From contig NC_134570.1 of assembly GCF_050947875.1 (NCBI RefSeq), positions 228,703,265-228,767,264 on the forward strand: a stretch of 64,000 nt of DNA. The letters run 5' to 3'. This document shows positions 9,646-62,349 of this stretch, in pieces (the first letter of the stretch is position 1; every line of letters starts with the position of its first letter). The DNA is from Dermacentor variabilis. Its lineage: Eukaryota > Arthropoda > Arachnida > Ixodida > Ixodidae. Below the pieces are notes generated by a model that was given only the letters and a program-made list of their open reading frames with translations, did no database searches and was not told the DNA's origin. A program made the position numbers and the translations under genes.

Positions 9646-10434
9646 ATGTTGTGGTACAGCAAGTCCCCCAAGCAGCTGCTCTACGTCCTGGCAACCAAGA
9701 CAGTCCCACTGCTGGGCTTCCCAGCAATCCAAGCCTTCGGCGTCTACATGTTTGTCAACCAAATCTTGGGTACTCCACAGCCTACTGGCAACATGTGTCT
9801 CGATACCAGCTTCATTCAAGGACTAGGGACACTCCCCGAAGCCCACACTATCAAGCTGCAAACCAACGCTACGCCTTTCTCCTTGAGCGTACCCCAGCGC
9901 ATTCCACTCCCTCTCCGCGATGTCATCAAGACTGAGGTAGACAAGCTAGAAGCAGAGGGCATGATTCGTCAGGTGGACACGCCAAGTGACTGGTGTGCTG
10001 GACTGGTTGTCGTCCTCAATGTCTCGGACCTCTACATGGCTCACTACAACACCGCATACAGGACCACGGTCCCGGCCGACGGCTCCTATGGCCTTGGGGT
10101 AGTACTTCTTCAGGAGCAGCCGTCAGATGAGCATTGGGCCGTTGGTTTCGCATTGCGGTCCCTCACAGCCACGGAATGCTGGTACAGCCAAATGGAGAAA
10201 GAAGCTTTGGTGGCCAGCTGGGTGGTCCGTGGGCTTCAGTTCTTTCTCGAGACAGACCATCAACCTCTGGTGGCGCTCTTGGTGTCTATGGAGATTGACC
10301 TGCTGCCACCAAGGATCCAGCGGTTTCACTTGAAGCTTATCCGTTTCCAGTACCAAGTACTTTATGTACCGGGGAAGTTGTTGGCAACTGCTGATATACT
10401 ATCACACGCACCGCTAGATTCCCTTGCCGGGTGA
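9646..10434 (+). pseudogene. RT/RNase H frame of Gypsy A lacking the RT palm
   Basis: 262 codons open from a true ATG. It begins with the spacer and RT fingers (EVDKLEAEGMIRQV, TPSDWCAGLVVVLN), then jumps directly to RNase H (ADGSYGLGVVLLQEQ, WYSQMEKEALVASWVV, ETDHQPLVALL) and the VLYVPGKLLATADILSHAP segment. The whole RT palm and thumb (Asp motifs, YxDD) is absent, yet no frameshift or stop marks the junction near residue 125. RNase H is itself readable but the product cannot reverse transcribe. Confidence 0.82.
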
Positions 10435-10658
10435 ATCAAATCAAGTTTTTTGCACAAGAGGTTGTCCGCTCCTTCCCAGACATCGTCTCGTCACAGCTCG
10501 AGCACCTGCGACGACAGCAAGTACAGTCCAATGCTTCAGTACTGCGCCATTGGCTGGCTCTGGCAGTGCCACTTGCCTCTACATGTGAAAAGGTACTGGC
10601 AGTACCAAGGGGACCTCAACGTCTGTGAGGGACTGCTTCTGAAGGGTCCCACATCGTT

Positions 10659-11480
10659 GTGCTATCTTCCCTTCAGCGCCGCATGCTCAAGCTTCTTCAT
10701 GATCGGCATCAAGGCATCAACTGGTGCAAAGCTCTGGCTCGGGAATCAGACTGGTTGCCGGGCATCACCAACCAGATAGACAAACTGGTGGCTAACTGCC
10801 CTACGTGCACCGAAACCAGAGTGCAGCACTCAGAGCCTATGCTGCCGGCAAACACTCCAAATCGGCCCTGGGAAAAGGTGCTTGTCAATCTTTTTCATCT
10901 GAACGGCCAGGACTACGTTCTTCTGGTGGATTACCGGTCATGCTTTCTGGAAGTCATCAGCCTGCGCTCGACGACAGCACCTGCTGTCTTCAATGCCATC
11001 AAGAGCACCTTCGCACGCCATGGGATCCCGAGACTAGTACACAGTGATAACGGTCCTCAGTTTGCTGCAAGAGAGTTCTCTGCCTTCACCCAGTCCTACG
11101 GCTTCTGCCATGTCTCAATGAGCCCCCATTTTCCACAGTCAAACGGGGAGGTAGAACGGATGTTGAGGACAGTCAAGGACCTGCTTCAGAAGGTGGATGA
11201 TCCCTACCTGGCACTTCTGGCATACCGGGACACCACTGAGGTAAATGGAGTGAGTTCATGGGGCCAGCTCAATGCCCCTGCTCCTACGTAGTGAAGACTC
11301 CGATGGGTGTACTCCAGCACAACCGGATGCACCTGGTTCCCACAACGGGACATTCTGTGGAATGCACTACCAGCCCAGCTGAAACTCCCGTGGTGGCGCA
11401 GACCGCCAGGTCCACAACAATGCTTGGAGCTGCTCGAGCAGCCTGAGACCAGAGAACCGCATCGCCTCGGGAAAGCACTT
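10659..11480 (+). pseudogene. Integrase of Gypsy A
   Basis: The integrase inserts cDNA into the genome. Visible: an HHCC zinc region (LHDRHQGINW...CPTCTE), then core residues D (LLVDYRSCF), D (VHSDNGPQF) and E (SNGEVERML), so all three catalytic positions are kept. The frame ends at 11291. The C-terminal part (VVKTPMGVLQHNRMHLVP, typical of the Gypsy integrase tail) is readable in another frame to about 11425. Any remaining tail up to the 3' LTR is not clear. Confidence 0.85.
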
Positions 11481-25299: not shown

Positions 25300-25503
25300 A
25301 AGCAATGAATGAATGAAGGAAGACCACATGGAGTTGAGTGTGCCAATCAGTATAAAATGATTAAAGAGAAAATCGTACATCCACCTGTTTGTAGCAATTG
25401 CTACAAAGGAAACCCTCCTGGTCAAAAATTCCTCCTGGTCAGGGACTCGAACCCGGAACCACTGCCTTTCTGGGGCAGCCGCTCTACCATGAGCTAACCT
25501 AGC
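25300..25503 (-). mobile_element. tRNA-derived SINE, minus strand
   Basis: Read on the minus strand from 25503: a tRNA-like head with TTAGCTCATGGTAGAGC (D-arm/box A region) and GGGTTCGAGTCCC (box B), followed by a tail containing TTTCCTTTGTAGCAATTGCT shared with the neighbouring SINE. It resembles tick tRNA-derived SINEs of the Ruka type (recalled, not tested). Outer limit approximate. Confidence 0.7.
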
Positions 25504-25690
25504 CTGGTTAGCGCAGATGGTAGAGCGGCTGCCCCGGAAAGGCGGTGGTCCCGGGTTCAAGTCCCGGACCAGGACAAATTTTTCTTCAACGCTGAGGCTT
25601 TTCTTTTGAGGAACCCGTATGGGGTTTCCTTTGTAGCAATTGCTAAGAATTGGTGGATGTCTGATTTTCCCTTTATTCATTACTTCTCTC
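25502..25690 (+). mobile_element. tRNA-derived SINE, plus strand
   Basis: The head 25502-25574 folds as a tRNA: acceptor CCTGGT (25503-25508) pairs with ACCAGG (25568-25573), box A TAGCGCAGATGG (25509-25520), an anticodon stem CTGCC/GGCGG with a GGA anticodon position, and box B GGTTCAAGTCC (25554-25564). It lacks a plausible gene context and has a repeat tail (TTTCCTTTGTAGCAATTGCT), so it is a SINE rather than a tRNA gene. The box A and B elements are an internal Pol III promoter. Confidence 0.75.
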
Positions 25691-37250: not shown

Positions 37251-38130
37251 ACACCAATCACGAAGCACCGAATAATGACATCCACCGACACACGCCTCAT
37301 CAAACAACAGCCTTATCGTATCTCACCGAAAAAACGTGCGGCAATTCAAGCCCAAGTCAAGGAGATGCTAGATGGTGGTGTCATTCAGCCTTCGCACAGT
37401 CCGTGGTCGTCCCCGGTCGTTCTGGTCAAGAAAAAAGACGGAACGCTTCATTTCTGTGTTGATTATTGACGCCTCAACGATGTCACCAAGGAGGATGTGT
37501 ACCCACTACTACGTATCGATGACTCTTTAGACAGGTTGCGGCGAGCTAAGTATTTTTCGTCTCTTGATCTAAAAAGCAGTTACTGGCAAATTGACGTAGA
37601 TGAACAAGACCGCAAAAAAAACTGCTTTCGTCACTCCAGATGGCCTTTACGAATTCAGGGTACTTCCTTTCAGGCTCTGTTCGGCGCCAGCAACTTTCCA
37701 GTGAATGATGGACACCGTTCTCGCTGGTCTGAAGTGGTAAAGCTGCCTCGTCTACCTCGACGACGTGGTTGTTTTTTCAGCGACATTTGACGACCACCTG
37801 AAACGACTGCAGCAAGTTCTCGAAGCCATCCGATCGGCTAATCTCACCCTTAAGCCTCAGAAGTGCCATTTCAGCTACAAGGAGCTCACGTTTCTGGGAC
37901 ACGTGGTCAGCGTGGAAGGAGTTAGCCCGGATCCCGCGAAAACTAACTGCCGCTGTAGCCACGTTTTCCTCACCGACCGACAAGAAAGGTGTCCGACGCT
38001 TCCTGGGCCTTTGTGCATACTACCGGCGTTTCATAGAAAATTTTTCGAAGAAGGCGGAGCCACTGACTCGACTCACGAGGGACGATGTATTGTTCGTCTG
38101 GGCCTCAGAGCAAGAGACTGCTTTCACTGA
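37251..38130 (+). pseudogene. Reverse transcriptase of Gypsy B
   Basis: Motifs: PYRISPKKRAAIQAQVKEML, VIQPSHSPWSSPVVLVKKKD and HFCVDY followed by an in-frame TGA (37467-37469). Then YFSSLDLKSSYWQIDVDEQD (first catalytic Asp), a frameshifted stretch, and the active site LVYLDDVVVF near 37747-37776, where two frames overlap. FLGHVVSVEGV and the connection region follow in a decayed form. Confidence 0.88.
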
Positions 38131-38142
38131 GCTTTGACAGCG

Positions 38143-38530
38143 TCTAGTGTCAGCACCAGTTTTGGCCCACTTTGACGAGGAGGCGGACATGGAAGTTCAT
38201 ACAGACGCCAGTAACGTTGGTCTTGGTGCGGTGCTTGTACAATGGCAGGAAAGTATTGAAAGAGTGATCGCCTATGCAAGTTGCACACTATCGCGTGCAG
38301 AGACCAACTACACCACTATGGAGAAAAAGTGTCTTGCCGTCGTATGGGCGCTGGCCAAATTTCGACCTTACCTCTATGGCCACCCATTCAATGTTGCGAC
38401 CGATCATCAGTCGTTATGCTGGCTTGCAAATCTGCGGGACCCTTCTGGACTACTGGCCCAGTGGAGTCTACGTTTGCAGGAGTACGACGTGACCATCGTA
38501 CAAGTCGGGCCGCATACACGAAGACTCTGA
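38143..38530 (+). pseudogene. RNase H of Gypsy B
   Basis: [18 protein letters not shown] (Asp), [15 protein letters not shown] (Glu) and [11 protein letters not shown] (Asp) are intact. The frame ends at a TGA just after the LQEYDVTIV segment, where the downstream linker to integrase should continue. Confidence 0.88.
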
Positions 38531-38599
38531 CGCACTCTCACACGCCCCTATCGACACTACCGACCAAGACATTGAGGACGACAGCGTTTTCCTTGGGGC

Positions 38600-39885
38600 C
38601 GTAAGCATTACTGATTTGTCCACCCGGCAGCGCGCAGATGACACACTACGCCCTATATTCGAACGTCTGGAAGGACGAAACCCATCAATACCCCGGCACA
38701 TTGCTCGAGGATTGTCGTCTTTTTGTTTACGACATGGCGTCTTGTATAAGAAGAACTCTGTGGCCACCAACAAGACATACCTTTTGGTTGTTCCAGCAGG
38801 CCTCCATGCCGAAGTTTTATTCGCCTGTCATTACGAGCCTCCGTCTGGCCATTTGGGCTTTACGCAAACGCTTGATAGAGTGCGCAAATCCTACTACTGG
38901 CCGAAACTTGCCGAGTGTGTTAAGCGGTACGTCCAAGGCTGCCGTGAATGCCAGCGCCGAAGGTCCCCAGCTGTGAAGCCTGCGGGATTGCTGAATCTGA
39001 TTGACCCACCTGGCAAACCTTTCCACCAGGTCGGCATGGATCTTCTGGGCCCGTTTCCACTGTCATCTTCTGGCAACAGGTGGATAATCATCGCCACAGA
39101 CTATTTAACGGGGTATGCTGAGACAAAGGCGTTGCCTAGAGGCACAGCTTCCGAGGTTGCCCAGCTTTTCCATACAGAGCATCGTCCTATGGCATGGCGC
39201 CCCATCGCACGTCATCACAGACCGAGGCAAAGCCTTTACAGCGCAGCTCATTCAAGACGTTTTTAAACTCAGCTGCACAACCCATCAAAGGACAACTGCC
39301 TATCATTCGCAGACAAACGGCTTGACCAAACGACTAAACAAAACGATGACTGACATGCTGTCTATGTACGTAGACGTACAGCAGAAGACGTGGGACGAGA
39401 TACTCCCATACGTAACGTTTGCCTATAACACTAGTACGCAAGAAACAACACGCTTCACCCCGTTTTACCTTGTTCACGGCCGTGAAGTGCAGACTATGTT
39501 AGAAGCAATGCTGCCGTGCGACAACATCGATCACCTCGATCTCGCCCAAGATGCCGAACTCTTCGTGCAACGCGTGGAAGAAGCCCGTCAGCTTGCCCAA
39601 GTGCACGTAAAGCAACAACAGAGCATCGATGCCCAATGTTGCAATCTCCACCATCGACAAGTCGAGTTCCAACCTGGCGATAAAGTTTTTGTCTGGACTC
39701 CCGTGCGCCAAAAAGGACTATCCGAGAAGCTTTTGAATCGCTACTTCGGACCTTACAAAGTGTTGCAGCGAATTAGTGACGTGAATTACGAAGTCCTTCC
39801 TGATGGAAGCCAACCTCCTCGACGTCGACAACCGCAATCTGAGATTGTGCACGTTATGCAGTTGAAACAGTACTATACCCCGTAA
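38600..39885 (+). pseudogene. Integrase of Gypsy B, frameshifted, catalytic Glu changed
   Basis: HHCC region HYEPPSGHLGF...CRECQRRR, core Asp in IIIATDYLTGYAETKAL, a frameshift near 39180, second Asp in HVITDRGKAF, then HSQTNGLTKRLNKTM, where the family has Glu at the Lys position; the catalytic triad is therefore broken. The C-terminal domain (FQPGDKVFVWTPVRQKGL, FGPYKVLQRISDVNYEV) is intact to the stop at 39885. Confidence 0.9.
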
Positions 39886-46849: not shown

Positions 46850-47801
46850 CCAGTCACATCAACTTCAACCCACAGCTAGATCAACCCGAAAAGGAGAGGC
46901 TCCCCACTCTGCTATTGTCATTTAGCGACTGTTTCTCCCCCACGTCGAAGGTCAAACACACTCCTTTAACCAAACACAGAATCATCACTGAACCAACTGT
47001 CCAACCTGTTCACCAACACCCTTATCGCGTGTTGCAAAGAGAACAGGATGCTATTCGTCATCAAGTTAAACAAATGCTAGACGATGATGTCATTCAACCA
47101 TCGACAAGTCCTTGGGCTTCACCAGTTGTATTAGTTAAGAAGAAAGTTCACTACGATTCTGTGTCGATTACCGCAAACTGAACAAGATCACGAAAGAAGA
47201 CGTTTACCCACTTCCTCGGATTGACGACTCTTTGGATCGCCTGCGACATGCCCGTAACTTTTCTTCAATGGATCTGCGTAGTGGGTACTGGCAGATTGAA
47301 GTTGACGAACGGGACCAGGAAAATAACGGCGTTTATAAAACCTGGTGGTCTATCAATTTAAGGTCCTCCCTTTTGGATTGTGTTTCGCTCCGGCCACATT
47401 TCAATGCATGATGGACACAGTTTTATCTAACCTCAAGTGGCACTCGTGTTTAGTCTACTTAGATGATGTAGTTGTTTTTTTCCACGACGTTTGAACAACA
47501 CATCCAGCGGCTTGAGGCAGTTCTTCAAGCCATCCGCACCGCCGGCCTGTCTCTGAAGCCTGAAAAATGTCCCTTTGGCTACGAGGAGCTTAAATTTCTA
47601 GGTCATATTTTCAGCAGCACCTGCATGTGCCCTGACCCTGACAAAGCCATGGTAATTGCTCTGTTCCCGATACCAAAGTCAGAGCATGATGTCCGCCGAT
47701 TTTTAGGGATTTGTGCATATTGCCGCCATTTTGCGCCCAATTTTTGTGACATTGCCGAACCTCTGCAACAACTCATCAAGAACGATGTCCCATTTGTTTA
47801 G
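46850..47801 (+). pseudogene. Reverse transcriptase of Gypsy C
   Basis: HTPLTKHRIITEPTVQPVHQ, VIQPSTSPWASPVVLVKKK, then in shifted frames FCVDYRKLNKITKEDVYPLP, FSSMDLRSGYWQIEVDERD (first Asp), LVYLDDVVVF near 47450, and LSLKPEKCPFGYEELKFLGH. At least five frameshifts. Confidence 0.85.
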
Positions 47802-47869
47802 GGTCCAGCACCCAATCTGGCGCCTTCCACTACCTTCAGTGATGTCTACAGACACCACCGATCTTTAGT

Positions 47870-48300
47870 CACGTTGACACCGAGGCCGACACAGAAGTGC
47901 ATACTGATGCTAGTAACATTAGTCGCGGAGCGACACGCGCACACTTTCAAGCTGGTGTTGACTGCATTATTGCGTATGCCAGCCGAACTTTGTGTGCTGC
48001 TGATAAAACTACTCAGCAGCTGAAAAGGAATGTCTGGCAGTCGTATGGGCTATCCAGAAGTTCCAGCCATACTTGTACGGACGCCCCTTCTGTGTCGTCA
48101 GCGACCACCACTCTCTCTGCTGGCTGGCGAATCTCAAGGATCCTTCAGGCAGTCTCGCAAGATGGAGCCTTCAGTTGCAGGAATTTGATGCGACAATTGT
48201 CTGTAAGTCTGGCCAAAAAAAGCACGGACGCCGACTGTCTCTCCCGCACACCCGTCGAACCCGCACCACCAGATACTGATGACGACTCTGGTTTTCTTTG
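47870..48300 (+). pseudogene. RNase H of Gypsy C
   Basis: [19 protein letters not shown] carries the first Asp. The Glu region is shifted ([19 protein letters not shown] in another frame near 48020), and [20 protein letters not shown] is readable at 48090-48150. Confidence 0.8.
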
Positions 48301-58622: not shown

Positions 58623-58840
58623 ATAAAAAATTGGCTGTTCGCGATAGCGGACAGCCGATCTCATACACCCCTCGCACGCTTTGGCCTTCGCATCCGGCGC
58701 CTGTAACCAACAAAGGCATAGCATTTAAGACCCACAATTTAAATACAGAGGGTGTCACTTGGTTAATTGGAGATTTCAAGGAGAGGCTTTTGTCCTGCAG
58801 TGGACATAAAAATAGGCTAAAAAATAATAAATAAGAAAAT
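58623..58840 (+). mobile_element. LINE/SINE-derived fragment
   Basis: 58623-58700 (GGCTGTTCGCGATAGC...) has a second copy at about 61922-62010. 58785-58840 reads GAGAGGCTTTTGTCCTGCAG, similar to RTE-type 3' ends, then an AAAATAATAAATAAG tail. Confidence 0.5.
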
Positions 58841-58868
58841 GACCCTTTGCCGCCAAAGCCTGGCCGGG

Positions 58869-59096
58869 TGTAGCAAGTATGTCACGCCCCCTCGGGCATA
58901 ATCTTGGTTCGCCCGCCAAGCTTGGTGGCCTGCTACAGCTCGGCAGGCAACATTGGTCACCGCATCACAATAAACACTGACGAGCACGGCTGCTCGCCGG
59001 TCAGTCATCGTTCAGCACCACCACGCTGCGGAGCATCCGTCTATCGGAGGGTGCCACAAGCCCTCCCTTGTTCACGACCCGGGGTGGATCGTGACA
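58869..59096 (+). repeat. 5' LTR of Gypsy D
   Basis: 228 bp, TGTAGCAAGTATG...GATCGTGACA. AATAAACACTGACGAGC inside may serve as the polyadenylation region. Confidence 0.92.
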
Positions 59097-59215
59097 GTTT
59101 TTTTGTTTTGTTTTGGCAGTCAAGTTTCTGTGTGAAAATAAATGCCGACACTTCCTTTCGTAACACCCCTTGTACATATATACAGCAGGTGTTGACAGCA
59201 GGTGTTGACGTGACA
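59097..59215. repeat. 113-bp insertion at the 5' LTR/leader border
   Basis: GTGACA occurs at 59091-59096 and again at 59210-59215, followed by CTGGCGACGAGGATGG, a Gypsy-like leader/primer site. The intervening DNA starts GTTTTTTTGTTTTG and ends in two copies of CAGCAGGTGTTGAC. This suggests a small insertion with a 6-bp duplication; alternatively it is part of a mosaic LTR. Confidence 0.5.
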
Positions 59216-59325
59216 CTGGCGACGAGGATGGGATCCTCGTGACACTGACGAGGCTGGCGACGAGTACCTACGGAGCGTCCCACGCCGCCGCGAGCGCCGA
59301 AACACCGCCCCCCATCGCTGTCGCC

Positions 59326-59664
59326 ATGCCGCTGTACGGAAGGCTGAAGCCGTTCGAGGGAGATGGGTCCGCCTGGCAAATTTACGGGGAGCAAGTCCAC
59401 GTGTTCTTCCGGGCAAATGACACACCCGAGGCCAAACAGCGGGACATTATCCTGGCCAGCTGCAGGACCCGCGTCTTCAGCCTCTTGCTCGACCTTCTCA
59501 AGCCAGCCACGCCGCACGTTAAGACGCTGGGTGAGCTGCTTGCCATACTGCGCTCGCATTTTAACCCAGCACTGTCCACACTAATGAAACATTTCCGCTT
59601 TAACAACTGGAGCCGCCGGGAAGGGGGACCCTCGGGCGGTTCGTTGCTGTGCTATGAGAGTTAG
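59326..59664 (+). pseudogene. Gag N-terminal part of Gypsy D
   Basis: ATG at 59326 gives MPLYGRLKPFEGDGSAW and WQIYGEQVHVFFRANDTPEA, then LLDLLKPATPHVKTLGELLA and LRSHFNPAL, typical of Gypsy capsids. It ends in a frameshift at RREGGPSGGSLLCYES. The gag body resumes at 59697 in another frame. Confidence 0.85.
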
Positions 59665-59696
59665 CGAGTGCCTGCGTTTTCGGAGACCAGCTGGAC

Positions 59697-60038
59697 TTGC
59701 TGCTCCGGGACTGCTTCGTCTGCGGAATCAACAACCCCGCCATGCAGACGCGACTCCTGGAGCTGCTTCCCGACCCGTCGCTGGACAACGCCGTGAAGGC
59801 AGCGCTGGCAATGGAAGCTGCCGCCAAGGACGCCGGCGAGATTTCCCGTGCGACTGGATCACCGTCGGCGGAAGCGGCAGTCAACAAGTTCACGACAAAG
59901 GGCAGTACCTGCGGTCGCTGTGGCGGTGCCCCCTCCCCTTCACAGTACCAGTTCTCTCAAGCACAATGCTTTACGTGCGGGAAAACTGGGCATCTGGCAC
60001 GTGTATGCCGAAGGGGGACGACGAGCGTATGCGGCTGA
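59697..60038 (+). pseudogene. Gag C-terminal part and zinc knuckles of Gypsy D
   Basis: LLRDCFVCGINNPAMQTRLL and ALAMEAAAKDAGEISRA, then a partial first knuckle (CGRC) and a complete second, CFTCGKTGHLARVC (CX2CX4HX4C). Ends at a TGA at 60036-60038. Confidence 0.85.
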
Positions 60039-60053
60039 GGCATGTGGCAGCAG

Positions 60054-60277
60054 GCTCAAGTTCTTCCGTGGCCAGGCTCCACGTCATGGCCGAGAACCCG
60101 CCGATTTTCAACATGTGGCACACAGGCTTTGTACCGTCGTCTGTGCCGCCATACATGCTGACCGTCGAAATCTGCGGGCACCCCATTTCCATGGAGCTGG
60201 ACACAGGGGCCAGCATGTCAGTAATGGCTGGGAAACTCTCCAAGCGTACTTTCCCCGGTGTGTCCGTCAAGGCTTAG
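60054..60277 (+). pseudogene. Protease of Gypsy D, followed by an in-frame amber codon
   Basis: VEICGHPISMELDTGASMSV carries the aspartic protease active site DTGA. It ends in a TAG at 60275-60277, but the same frame continues directly into the 60284-61510 frame, so the stop is either a late mutation or a readthrough site. Confidence 0.82.
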
Positions 60278-60283
60278 GGCGTG

Positions 60284-61510
60284 ATGCTGCGCAGCTCATC
60301 CGGGCAACTCTCCCAGGTCCAGGGTCAGGCACAGGTCAGCGTTCGTTTTGGCGACAGGGAGGCAACCCTTCCCCTTTACTTAACGAAGGGGTCGTCGCCG
60401 ACGCTGCTGGACCGAAACTGGATTCATGCACTGGGCCTTCGTCTGCCAGAGTACCCGGAAGCCAGCCTGCATCTGGTGCAGAGCTGCCAAATCTGCCAGG
60501 AGTATCAGCGAGCCTCGCGTAATGTGGAAAGCACCCCCTGGCCGTTCCCACAGAGACCCTGGTCCTGCCTACATGTGGATTTTGGGGGCTCTGGCGGTGG
60601 TGGCGGAGCAGCCTCCTTGCGCTTTGAGGACCTGCAGAGCCAGTTCTCCGTGCTGTACAACGAGAGCATGCAACTCAAGACTCAGCTGGACGAGTGTCGC
60701 TCCTTGCTGTCGACAGCCAAAAACTCACACCTTCGCCACATTGAGCAGATGGAAAGCGAGGAGCTGGTCGTCCAGAAGAAGCTTCGCTTGGAGGTCATCC
60801 GCCTCGAGGACAACATCGCGCAGATTTGTCGAGAGTACGAGAATCTACGCACTGAGTTTGAGGCGTCGTCGGTGGTCGGCGAGCAGGCTCAGCCAATCAA
60901 CCGGGAGATGTGGCACATTATAACGAGCCTGCAGAGCCGCAACAGGCGGCTCAAGAGCGAGGTCTCCTGCAGCAAGCACAAGCTGCGCAAGGCCCAATCA
61001 GAGACTCAGAAGCTGGCTGCTGACCAAGGGTGCTGTCCCGGGCCTTTGCCAGAGTCGGGAGCTCCAGTTCTCGCCAGGAACTTCTGTCCTGGCCCACCCT
61101 GGTCTACCGGACAGGTGGTGTCCCCTGCCAGCGCCTCATTGCTGCTCGTGCGCATGCCAGACGGGGACATGTGGCACAGACACGCCGACCATGTCAGGCC
61201 TCGCCTCGGGACCTGGCCAGCACCCTCGACTGCCACTGAGTTCCAGCCCGCAGGAGGACTAGCGGCAGCACCAGTCGCTTCCAGCGGAGTACCACCCACC
61301 TCGGAGGCGGCAACTGTTGCCAGTGGTGCGGCACTCGTTGGACCGGTGTCGAACCTGGCACCACTCGCAAGGCCGACTACTACGAACCCTCCGGATGGAG
61401 CAAGGCTGGCTCAGGCAGCACCCGGCGTTGCCACACCCGACCCGTCAACACTGGTGCCCAAGTGGAGTACTCGACGGCGGAGGCCACCAGACCGTTACTC
61501 GCCTGGGTAG
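60284..61510 (+). CDS. Fusion: protease end, integrase zinc remnant, BRE1-like coiled coil, integrase C-terminus
   Basis: About 408 codons, uninterrupted, first ATG at 60284; residue numbers below count from codon 60281. 1-60: protease end (ATLPLYLTKGSSPTLL). 62-101: integrase zinc remnant (SCQICQEYQRASRN, PWPFPQRPWSCLHVDF). 102-110: Gly-rich. About 111-246: coiled coil with RHIEQMESEELVVQKKLR, EVIRLEDNIAQICREYENLR and EQAQPINREMWHIITSLQ, closely matching the conserved region of BRE1 (RNF20/RNF40), the E3 ligase for H2B mono-ubiquitination, minus its RING. 261-309: integrase C-terminal domain (PVLARNFCPGPPWSTG, HRHADHVRPRL). 310-409: Pro/Ala-rich. BRE1 identity is from recalled family sequence. 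Expression and function are unknown. Confidence 0.85.
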   Translation: MLRSSSGQLSQVQGQAQVSVRFGDREATLPLYLTKGSSPTLLDRNWIHALGLRLPEYPEASLHLVQSCQICQEYQRASRNVESTPWPFPQRPWSCLHVDFGGSGGGGGAASLRFEDLQSQFSVLYNESMQLKTQLDECRSLLSTAKNSHLRHIEQMESEELVVQKKLRLEVIRLEDNIAQICREYENLRTEFEASSVVGEQAQPINREMWHIITSLQSRNRRLKSEVSCSKHKLRKAQSETQKLAADQGCCPGPLPESGAPVLARNFCPGPPWSTGQVVSPASASLLLVRMPDGDMWHRHADHVRPRLGTWPAPSTATEFQPAGGLAAAPVASSGVPPTSEAATVASGAALVGPVSNLAPLARPTTTNPPDGARLAQAAPGVATPDPSTLVPKWSTRRRRPPDRYSPG

Positions 61511-61590
61511 CAGGCACCGTCGACCCAGCTAGGGTGGAGGCGGAGCCTCATAGTGTGAACATGGACGTTTGTTTTTCATTTAACAAACAA

Positions 61591-61606
61591 ACTGGGGGTA
61601 AGGGGG
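61591..61606 (+). promoter_or_regulatory. Polypurine tract of Gypsy D
   Basis: ACTGGGGGTAAGGGGG directly before the 3' LTR; the plus-strand DNA primer in LTR elements. Confidence 0.75.
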
Positions 61607-61834
61607 TGTAGCAAGTATGTGACGCCCCGTCGGGCATAATCTTGGTTCGCCCACCAAGCTCGGTGGCCTGCTAAAGCTCGGCAGGCAACATTGGTCACCG
61701 CATCACAATAAACACCGACAAGCACGGCTGCTCGCCGGTCAGTCATCGTTCAGCGCCACCACGCTGCGGAGCGTCCATCTATCGGAGGGTGCCACAAGCC
61801 CTCCCTTGTTCACGACCCGGGGTGGATCGTGACA
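61607..61834 (+). repeat. 3' LTR of Gypsy D
   Basis: 228 bp, same ends as the 5' LTR, preceded directly by the polypurine tract. Confidence 0.92.
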
Positions 61835-61837
61835 CTG

Positions 61838-61875
61838 AGATTATGCCCGAGGGGGCGTCACCATACTTGCTACAG
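61838..61875 (-). repeat. Inverted LTR fragment beside the 3' LTR of Gypsy D
   Basis: AGATTATGCCCGAGGGGGCG...CTTGCTACA is the reverse complement of the first ~36 bp of the Gypsy D LTR. Confidence 0.8.
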
Positions 61876-62349
61876 TAATAATATTCTCACGACGAATGGA
61901 TTTCGTGGTGCTCATTTCGTCTAAAAAAAAAATGGCTGTACACAATAGCAAACAGCAGATTTCATACATCCCTGGTACACTTCGGCCTCACGAGCCCCAA
62001 CCTGCAGACCAGTCCGGGTTCTAGCTTTGGTGTCCCTGTTGCCGCTTTGGTGTCCTGGAGCCGCCGCCAGTAATGCGAAATAATGACACATGGTTACAGT
62101 TAGTAAAAAACACGATTGAATAAATATATTTACATCCAACTTCCAACTTGTCATGCTAAGTTCAGCACTACAGCGCCCTAAGACTTCTGCAACACCAGTC
62201 AAAACTTTGCCTCTGAAGGAACGTCAGACAGACTTGCTAAGGCACTCTGCCTTCTAGATTTTCAATACATGCGGCCCAGGCTCTACTACGGTCGCAAGCT
62301 ATGATCCGCCACGACTGACTTAGCACGAACGCCACAGGAGCAAGACAGT
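61876..62349. other. No gene; repeat-derived DNA
   Basis: Contains the second copy (61922-62010) of the fragment at 58623-58700. Otherwise nothing recognised. Confidence 0.45.

Follow-up and report, generated by a model that had tools for sequence, protein, structure and literature searches.

A 64-kb window of Dermacentor variabilis DNA (64,000 nucleotides, the whole stretch analysed here) contains a long reading frame in which part of a host protein lies between pieces of a Gypsy-type polyprotein. This raises the question of whether an LTR element captured a host coding sequence and, if so, by what steps and with what consequence. The initial annotation proposed that such an element had taken up ~136 codons of the BRE1 (RNF20/RNF40) coiled coil in one uninterrupted frame, within paired 228-bp LTRs that are ~96% identical. 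The frame and the repeats proved to be as described. The ORF runs from 60278 to 61510 on the forward strand, is open over 410 codons with its first ATG at 60284, and encodes, in order, a Gypsy protease tail with an integrase zinc remnant, the BRE1 stretch of ~142 codons and an integrase C-terminus. The host coding sequence sits inside the LTR pair, whose two members have TG...CA ends and differ at 10 of 228 positions (Table 1).

Identity of the inserted segment

The identity of the segment was settled by a sequence search of PDB proteins, in which BRE1 was by far the best match. Human BRE1B (residues 388-520) was returned by phmmer at E=5.6e-43 and BRE1A (residues 381-510) at 4.9e-36, with the next protein at 0.0085; retroelement polyproteins did not outscore BRE1 for this segment. 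When the ORF was scanned against Pfam, just weak coiled-coil families appeared, all under their cut-offs, and neither PF26052, the precomputed annotation of most BRE1 matches, nor a RING domain was returned. Because the middle coiled coil of BRE1 alone is present, the ORF product is not a ligase. The product of the tick BRE1 gene was found as well: the best full-length sequence is P0190 of D. andersoni (946 aa), followed by those of Hyalomma, Amblyomma, Rhipicephalus and Haemaphysalis (from the best 120 of 1559 matches). Viral contigs gave two pattern matches, none confirmed, and 0 matches to a 33-base LTR piece, while prokaryote genome contigs queried with D. andersoni BRE1 gave 12 pattern matches, none confirmed.

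The capture begins in the Gly-rich linker of BRE1 and finishes at QKL, the final three codons, which match the retroelement too. P0190 reads SGGGSGGGGGAASLRLEDLQSQLEEQ...EYKCLQSQFSV...SETQKLRQM, and the window reads HVDFGGSGGGGGAASLRFEDLQSQFSV...SETQKLAADQG. The first estimate of ~136 codons was close to the ~142 codons between 60590 and 61015, but the stretch is not collinear with BRE1, since 56 residues between two LQSQ motifs are gone. On the two sides of the segment, ORF residues 1-104 share 87.5% identity with the Gypsy polyprotein P0002 of D. albipictus, and residues 244-402 share 88% with P0001 of D. andersoni. The integrase flank residues were not found in the three full-length tick BRE1 sequences examined. 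Given flanks that are 87-88% identical to Dermacentor proteins and that do not occur in the tick BRE1 sequences examined, we consider the capture real.

Anatomy of the element

The element shows several Gypsy-type traits, namely the paired LTRs, a gag zinc knuckle that scores over its cut-off, a protease that scores under it, and integrase flanks near tick polyproteins. Its close matches among the polyproteins of ticks have integrase and RNase H-type domains. Reverse transcriptase (RT) and RNase H are missing from the element itself, where the protease end directly abuts the integrase zinc region, and because of this absence we class it only as a non-autonomous remnant. The integrase remnant ends in HVDFGG, which we take to hold the first catalytic Asp. 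Upstream of the ORF, the gag region is frameshifted relative to P0002, with P0002 residues 59-96 matching frame 1 and residues 97-189 matching frame 3, and the protease start is ended by an in-frame TAG at 60275-60277, 6 bp upstream of the ATG. The 113 bp flanked by two copies of GTGACA (59091-59215) likely represent a small insertion with a 6-bp duplication. No Rfam match was found within 58800-61900 up to E=0.1.

Table 1 Features of the element and of the captured segment, in window coordinates.
Feature	Position	Strand	Evidence
5' LTR, TG...CA	58869..59096	+	95.6% identical to 61607-61834
113 bp separating the 5' LTR from a second GTGACA (the LTR's last six bases)	59097..59215	+	sequence reading
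Putative primer-binding site TGGCGACGAGGATGG	59217..59231	+	suggested by its place after the second GTGACA; no tRNA match assigned
gag remnant with CCHC zinc knuckle, in two frames (59209-59664, then 59658-60038)	59209..60038	+	zf-CCHC 22.4 bits, cut-off 20.8
Aspartyl protease start	60161..60277	+	PF13650 E=2.6e-4, 22.0 bits, under the curated cut-off of 24.3
Protease tail up to the RT/RNase H deletion junction ASLH/LVQSCQ	60278..60472	+	P0002, 87.5% over ORF 1-104; P0002 shares the junction
Integrase zinc-finger remnant through HVDFGG	60473..60589	+	tblastn to P0003, P0011, P0013 and P0014, 65-78%
Captured BRE1, Gly-rich part and SLRFED (BRE1: SGGGGGAASLRLED)	60590..60631	+	aligned with P0190, the BRE1 of D. 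andersoni
Captured BRE1, coiled coil LQSQFSV...SETQKL	60632..61015	+	90.6% to P0190 370-497 (tblastn); human BRE1B 388-520, E=5.6e-43
LQSQ marking the 56-residue internal deletion	60632-60643	+	P0190 alignment
QKL common to BRE1 and the retroelement	61007-61015	+	sequence comparison
Integrase C-terminus and Pro/Ala-rich tail	61016..61510	+	P0001, 88% over ORF residues 244-402
Purine-rich tract preceding the 3' LTR	61594..61606	+	sequence reading; role putative
3' LTR, 228 bp	61607..61834	+	pairs with 58869-59096
Inverted 37-nt piece of the LTR start, 3 bases past the 3' LTR	61838..61874	-	blastn 94.6%

The surroundings of the element are rearranged. A target-site duplication is absent, as CCGGG precedes the 5' LTR and CTGAG follows the 3' LTR, after which the inverted LTR fragment occurs; a later rearrangement could have erased it. 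Given the lack of a duplication, the LTRs could stem from more than one insertion, and the recency that had been read from their identity is unsupported.

Elsewhere in the window, other retroelement-like frames are numerous, and further Gypsy-like pol fragments lie at 10036-11192, 37708-39561 and 47502-48216, with 23-40% identity to tick polyproteins. At 25432-25575, a pair of tRNA-like matches (Rfam RF00005, 37.2 and 31.6 bits) lies on opposite strands with a two-base overlap; they may be tRNA-derived repeats.

A second chimera in D. variabilis

Besides the window copy, we found one predicted D. variabilis gene model, P0005 (230 aa, annotated 'E3 ubiquitin-protein ligase Bre1-like'), in which BRE1 is joined to protease and integrase pieces from the same element family. 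Its name is likely an annotation error, the model being a retroelement-BRE1 chimera. The first 23 residues of P0005 are the protease stretch MAGKLFKRAFPGVSVEASGVMLR, identical at 19 of 23 positions to window 60224-60292, and one of the mismatches corresponds to the TAG stop of the window. The two chimeras are shaped differently. In P0005 the left junction is VMLR/APPASLR, so that BRE1 is entered from another protease position, the BRE1 part is longer and retains most of the 56 residues deleted from the window copy (two are missing), and the exit is made through integrase LKQKLA, with two residues (LK) more than at the right junction of the window, before a short C-terminus.

The BRE1 parts of both chimeras share two derived residues. 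Among the 305 proteins examined from the matches listed (the best 120 of 189, the best 120 of 1559 and all 78 of a third set), P0005 alone of 254 motif carriers has Ala after EFE and alone of 139 motif carriers has Arg in LQSxN (LQSRN), and the window has both. Further chimeras beyond those in the best 120 of 189 and best 120 of 1559 matches may exist. A tree of 12 rows and 125 clean columns groups the two captures with a support of 86/83, and the captures with D. andersoni BRE1 at 77/73, so that the clade suggested by these aligned residues has moderate, not decisive, support. A first tree, with a capture clade at 80/78, was set aside because it included non-homologous tail residues.

Two explanations of this pair were weighed. 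One BRE1 exon might have been captured twice independently, in the window lineage and in the P0005 lineage, and the junctions of P0005, which differ on the left and on the right, together with a clade support of just 86/83, would fit such a history. We consider it decidedly unlikely, however, since the two shared changes are unseen in the other motif-bearing proteins among the 305 listed matches examined and the BRE1 part is flanked on both sides by the same element family. Because a second, differently shaped chimera exists, the theft was probably passed on. The same protein bears on whether BRE1 and the element were falsely joined in assembly or annotation, which might be suspected because the chimera was read as DNA in one genomic copy. 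An artefact is scarcely credible and was rejected because of P0005, a second predicted chimera; moreover, the segment has diverged by 9% from D. andersoni BRE1, and it has changes in common with P0005.

Order of events

According to the initial annotation, BRE1 replaced RT and RNase H as well as the integrase core, and the relative without BRE1 speaks against this. P0002 of D. albipictus (600 aa) has the same gag-protease-integrase order as the window element and a matching protease-integrase junction (ASLHMVQSCQ in P0002, ASLHLVQSCQ in the window), but it possesses the integrase core and lacks BRE1. Among the fetched proteins this junction was found in P0002 only; in P0003 of R. microplus the matching parts are separated by 186 residues. 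Thus, judged from one protein, P0002, RT and RNase H were probably lost first, and BRE1 then replaced the integrase core only.

Junctions and the mechanism of capture

At the protein level, the two sequences overlap at every break, by GG on the left, by QKL on the right and by LQSQ at the internal deletion. When breakpoints were placed at random in P0190 and P0002, an overlap of at least two residues arose with a frequency of 0.011 and one of at least three residues with 9.2e-4, and random internal deletions within P0190 291-520 gave an overlap of at least four residues at 8.4e-4. The GG overlap is weak as evidence because the BRE1 linker is Gly-rich, and the QKL overlap does not discriminate between an mRNA and a DNA origin because the retroelement itself encodes QKL. 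By analogy with the described route, the overlaps match template switching between the element RNA and a packaged mRNA; microhomology-mediated DNA repair would give similar ones.

The initial annotation looked to introns for a test of origin. None was seen in the captured part, but this is probably uninformative: the tick-like sequence P0010 appears to read the whole captured region as one exon and to exit at HK/V, where the BRE1 of the window ends, a point consistent with a splice donor. Because P0010 would put the whole segment in one exon, introns cannot test the origin here. This leaves room for an insertion of the BRE1 exon into the integrase gene by microhomology-mediated repair, with no reverse transcription, given that the segment seems to lie within one exon and that microhomology is compatible with both mechanisms. 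The route described for LTR elements is nevertheless template switching onto packaged mRNA (PMC5408686, in its available part), and we regard the DNA-level origin as unlikely.

Our preferred reading, to which we give a probability of roughly 0.78, is that of a dead, non-autonomous Gypsy-type LTR element carrying a transduced piece of the host BRE1. Under this reading, the element would first have lost RT and RNase H by deletion, yielding a gag-protease-integrase derivative. The RNA of this derivative would then have been copied with a reverse transcriptase supplied in trans, and the enzyme would have jumped to a packaged BRE1 mRNA, presumably at a Gly-Gly encoded by both templates, and returned at a Gln-Lys-Leu that is likewise encoded by both. 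In this way perhaps ~200 BRE1 codons would have taken the place of the integrase core in frame. The chimera would subsequently have persisted or spread, by transposition or as one inherited insertion, to give the related D. variabilis copy P0005, and the window copy would have dropped 56 codons between the two LQSQ motifs. Decay would have followed, with the upstream stop and frameshift, CpG-type changes in the BRE1 part and the rearranged LTR surroundings.

Divergence, openness and possible function

Selection on the frame had been offered as one reason for its staying open, and we found this unsupported, as the segment has changed and chance openness is possible. Compared with D. andersoni BRE1, the captured segment has 12 changes in 127 residues and P0005 has eight in 127, while D. 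andersoni BRE1 itself differs from the genes of Hyalomma, Amblyomma and Rhipicephalus at 2, 14 and 17 of 127, respectively. Six of the 12 changes in the segment would be explicable as CpG transitions, given the probable parental codons. Such protein divergence points to relaxed constraint, although the Rhipicephalus gene is a counter-example, and we give this argument less weight because Rhipicephalus and Amblyomma show that BRE1 does not evolve slowly in all ticks.

The frame is open over 1.23 kb, whereas the 1.07 kb upstream has one stop and at least one frameshift. In simulations, the probability of no stop after 20, 30, 40 and 60 substitutions was 0.51, 0.36, 0.26 and 0.14, respectively; with 0.05 frameshifts per substitution it became 0.187, 0.080, 0.035 and 0.007, and with 0.1 frameshifts per substitution 0.069, 0.018, 0.005 and 0.000. 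An open frame beside a broken upstream region, with a probability of 0.005 at 40 substitutions and 0.1 frameshifts, could hint at selection. Because the simulation rates are assumed, we use the openness neither for nor against selection. The captured piece is mutating and, most likely, has no present function.

The segment spans a region implicated in WAC binding. Deletions of RNF20 416-507 and RNF40 421-490 are reported to abolish WAC binding, and the predicted WAC contacts include RNF40 E428, E431, E434, R442, E449 and K457, RNF20 E427 and, on strand 2, RNF20 766-826 (PMC12802937, in its available part). The equivalents of E428, E431, E434, R442, E449 and E427 are kept in the segment, K457 is replaced by Arg, and the strand-2 region is not part of the capture. 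The retention of the predicted contacts means little because 12 of 127 positions have changed. The fold model contains one confident helix at residues 116-249 (mean pLDDT 65.2, pTM 0.34), and most of the retroelement portion is modelled with low confidence.

These features could be taken to indicate a functional chimera, translated from the ATG at 60284, whose coiled coil would bind BRE1 or WAC and act as a dominant negative on H2B ubiquitination, from which the element would profit. The 410-codon open frame, the coverage of the WAC-binding region with most predicted contact residues retained and the helix predicted with high confidence at 116-249 are what this proposal would call for. It is opposed by the 12 changes in 127 residues relative to D. 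andersoni BRE1, six of them CpG-type, by the stop 6 bp upstream of the ATG and the gag frameshift relative to P0002, and by the position of the predicted strand-2 contacts outside the segment, and we judge such a product to be very improbable. The segment as a WAC decoy would be a long shot, and a broader version seems more improbable still. There, the WAC-binding coiled coil of BRE1 would be the cargo of a Dermacentor Gypsy family, whose product or RNA would reduce H2B ubiquitination at loci of the element or of the host. If this were true, a mobile element would interfere with the host chromatin machinery through a stolen part of that machinery.

The segment might instead act through RNA, its transcripts feeding small RNAs that trim BRE1 expression, as in the PxyMasc retrocopies of Plutella. 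A precedent exists in the piRNAs against a host gene that derive from retrocopies joined to LTR gag sequence (PMC9674220, in its available part), and the window has numerous other retroelement-like frames. The segment is sense-oriented to the LTR, however, and occurs as a single copy within the 64-kb window, and its protein sequence has diverged by ~9% from D. andersoni BRE1, which would probably weaken targeting. This route appears very improbable, and the dead element with a transduced BRE1 piece remains our preferred reading.

Relation to known captures and significance

Bs1 of maize is non-autonomous in anatomy. As in Bs1 and plant transduplication, an LTR element has here taken up cellular gene sequence (PMC5408686 and PMC13317346, in their available parts); unlike in those systems, one gene and one fragment are involved and the host is an animal. 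In metazoans, LTR-mediated retroposition has been described as template switching in the virus-like particle (Tan et al. 2016, via PMC5408686), and LTR-mediated retrocopies are reported in Drosophila and mosquito in the available part of the latter source. The present element resembles these cases in that a host mRNA fragment lies within an LTR element and the junctions show short stretches of similarity. It differs from the cases in that part of PMC5408686 in its tick host, in a recipient that seemingly had already lost RT, in host codons that share the reading frame of the protease and integrase remnants, and in the existence of a related chimera, P0005. The Pxyfem retrocopies of PxyMasc also join an arthropod host gene fragment to LTR gag sequence, and have features of their own, namely piRNAs against PxyMasc and tandem arrays on the W chromosome (PMC9674220, in its available part).

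LTR-mediated capture of host coding sequence is thus already known, and LTR-linked host gene pieces are known in arthropods (PMC9674220, in its available part). We found no case that links BRE1, a retrotransposon and a tick in the literature searched, which is no proof that such a case is unpublished. The locus provides a clean tick case of an LTR element with an in-frame host coding fragment, and P0002 and P0005 let the steps be ordered. Counts of gene families can be distorted when gene prediction gives a chimera such as P0005 the name of the host gene ('Bre1-like'). Should there be several copies, the rules of template switching could be measured, as could what becomes of a chromatin gene once it is captured.
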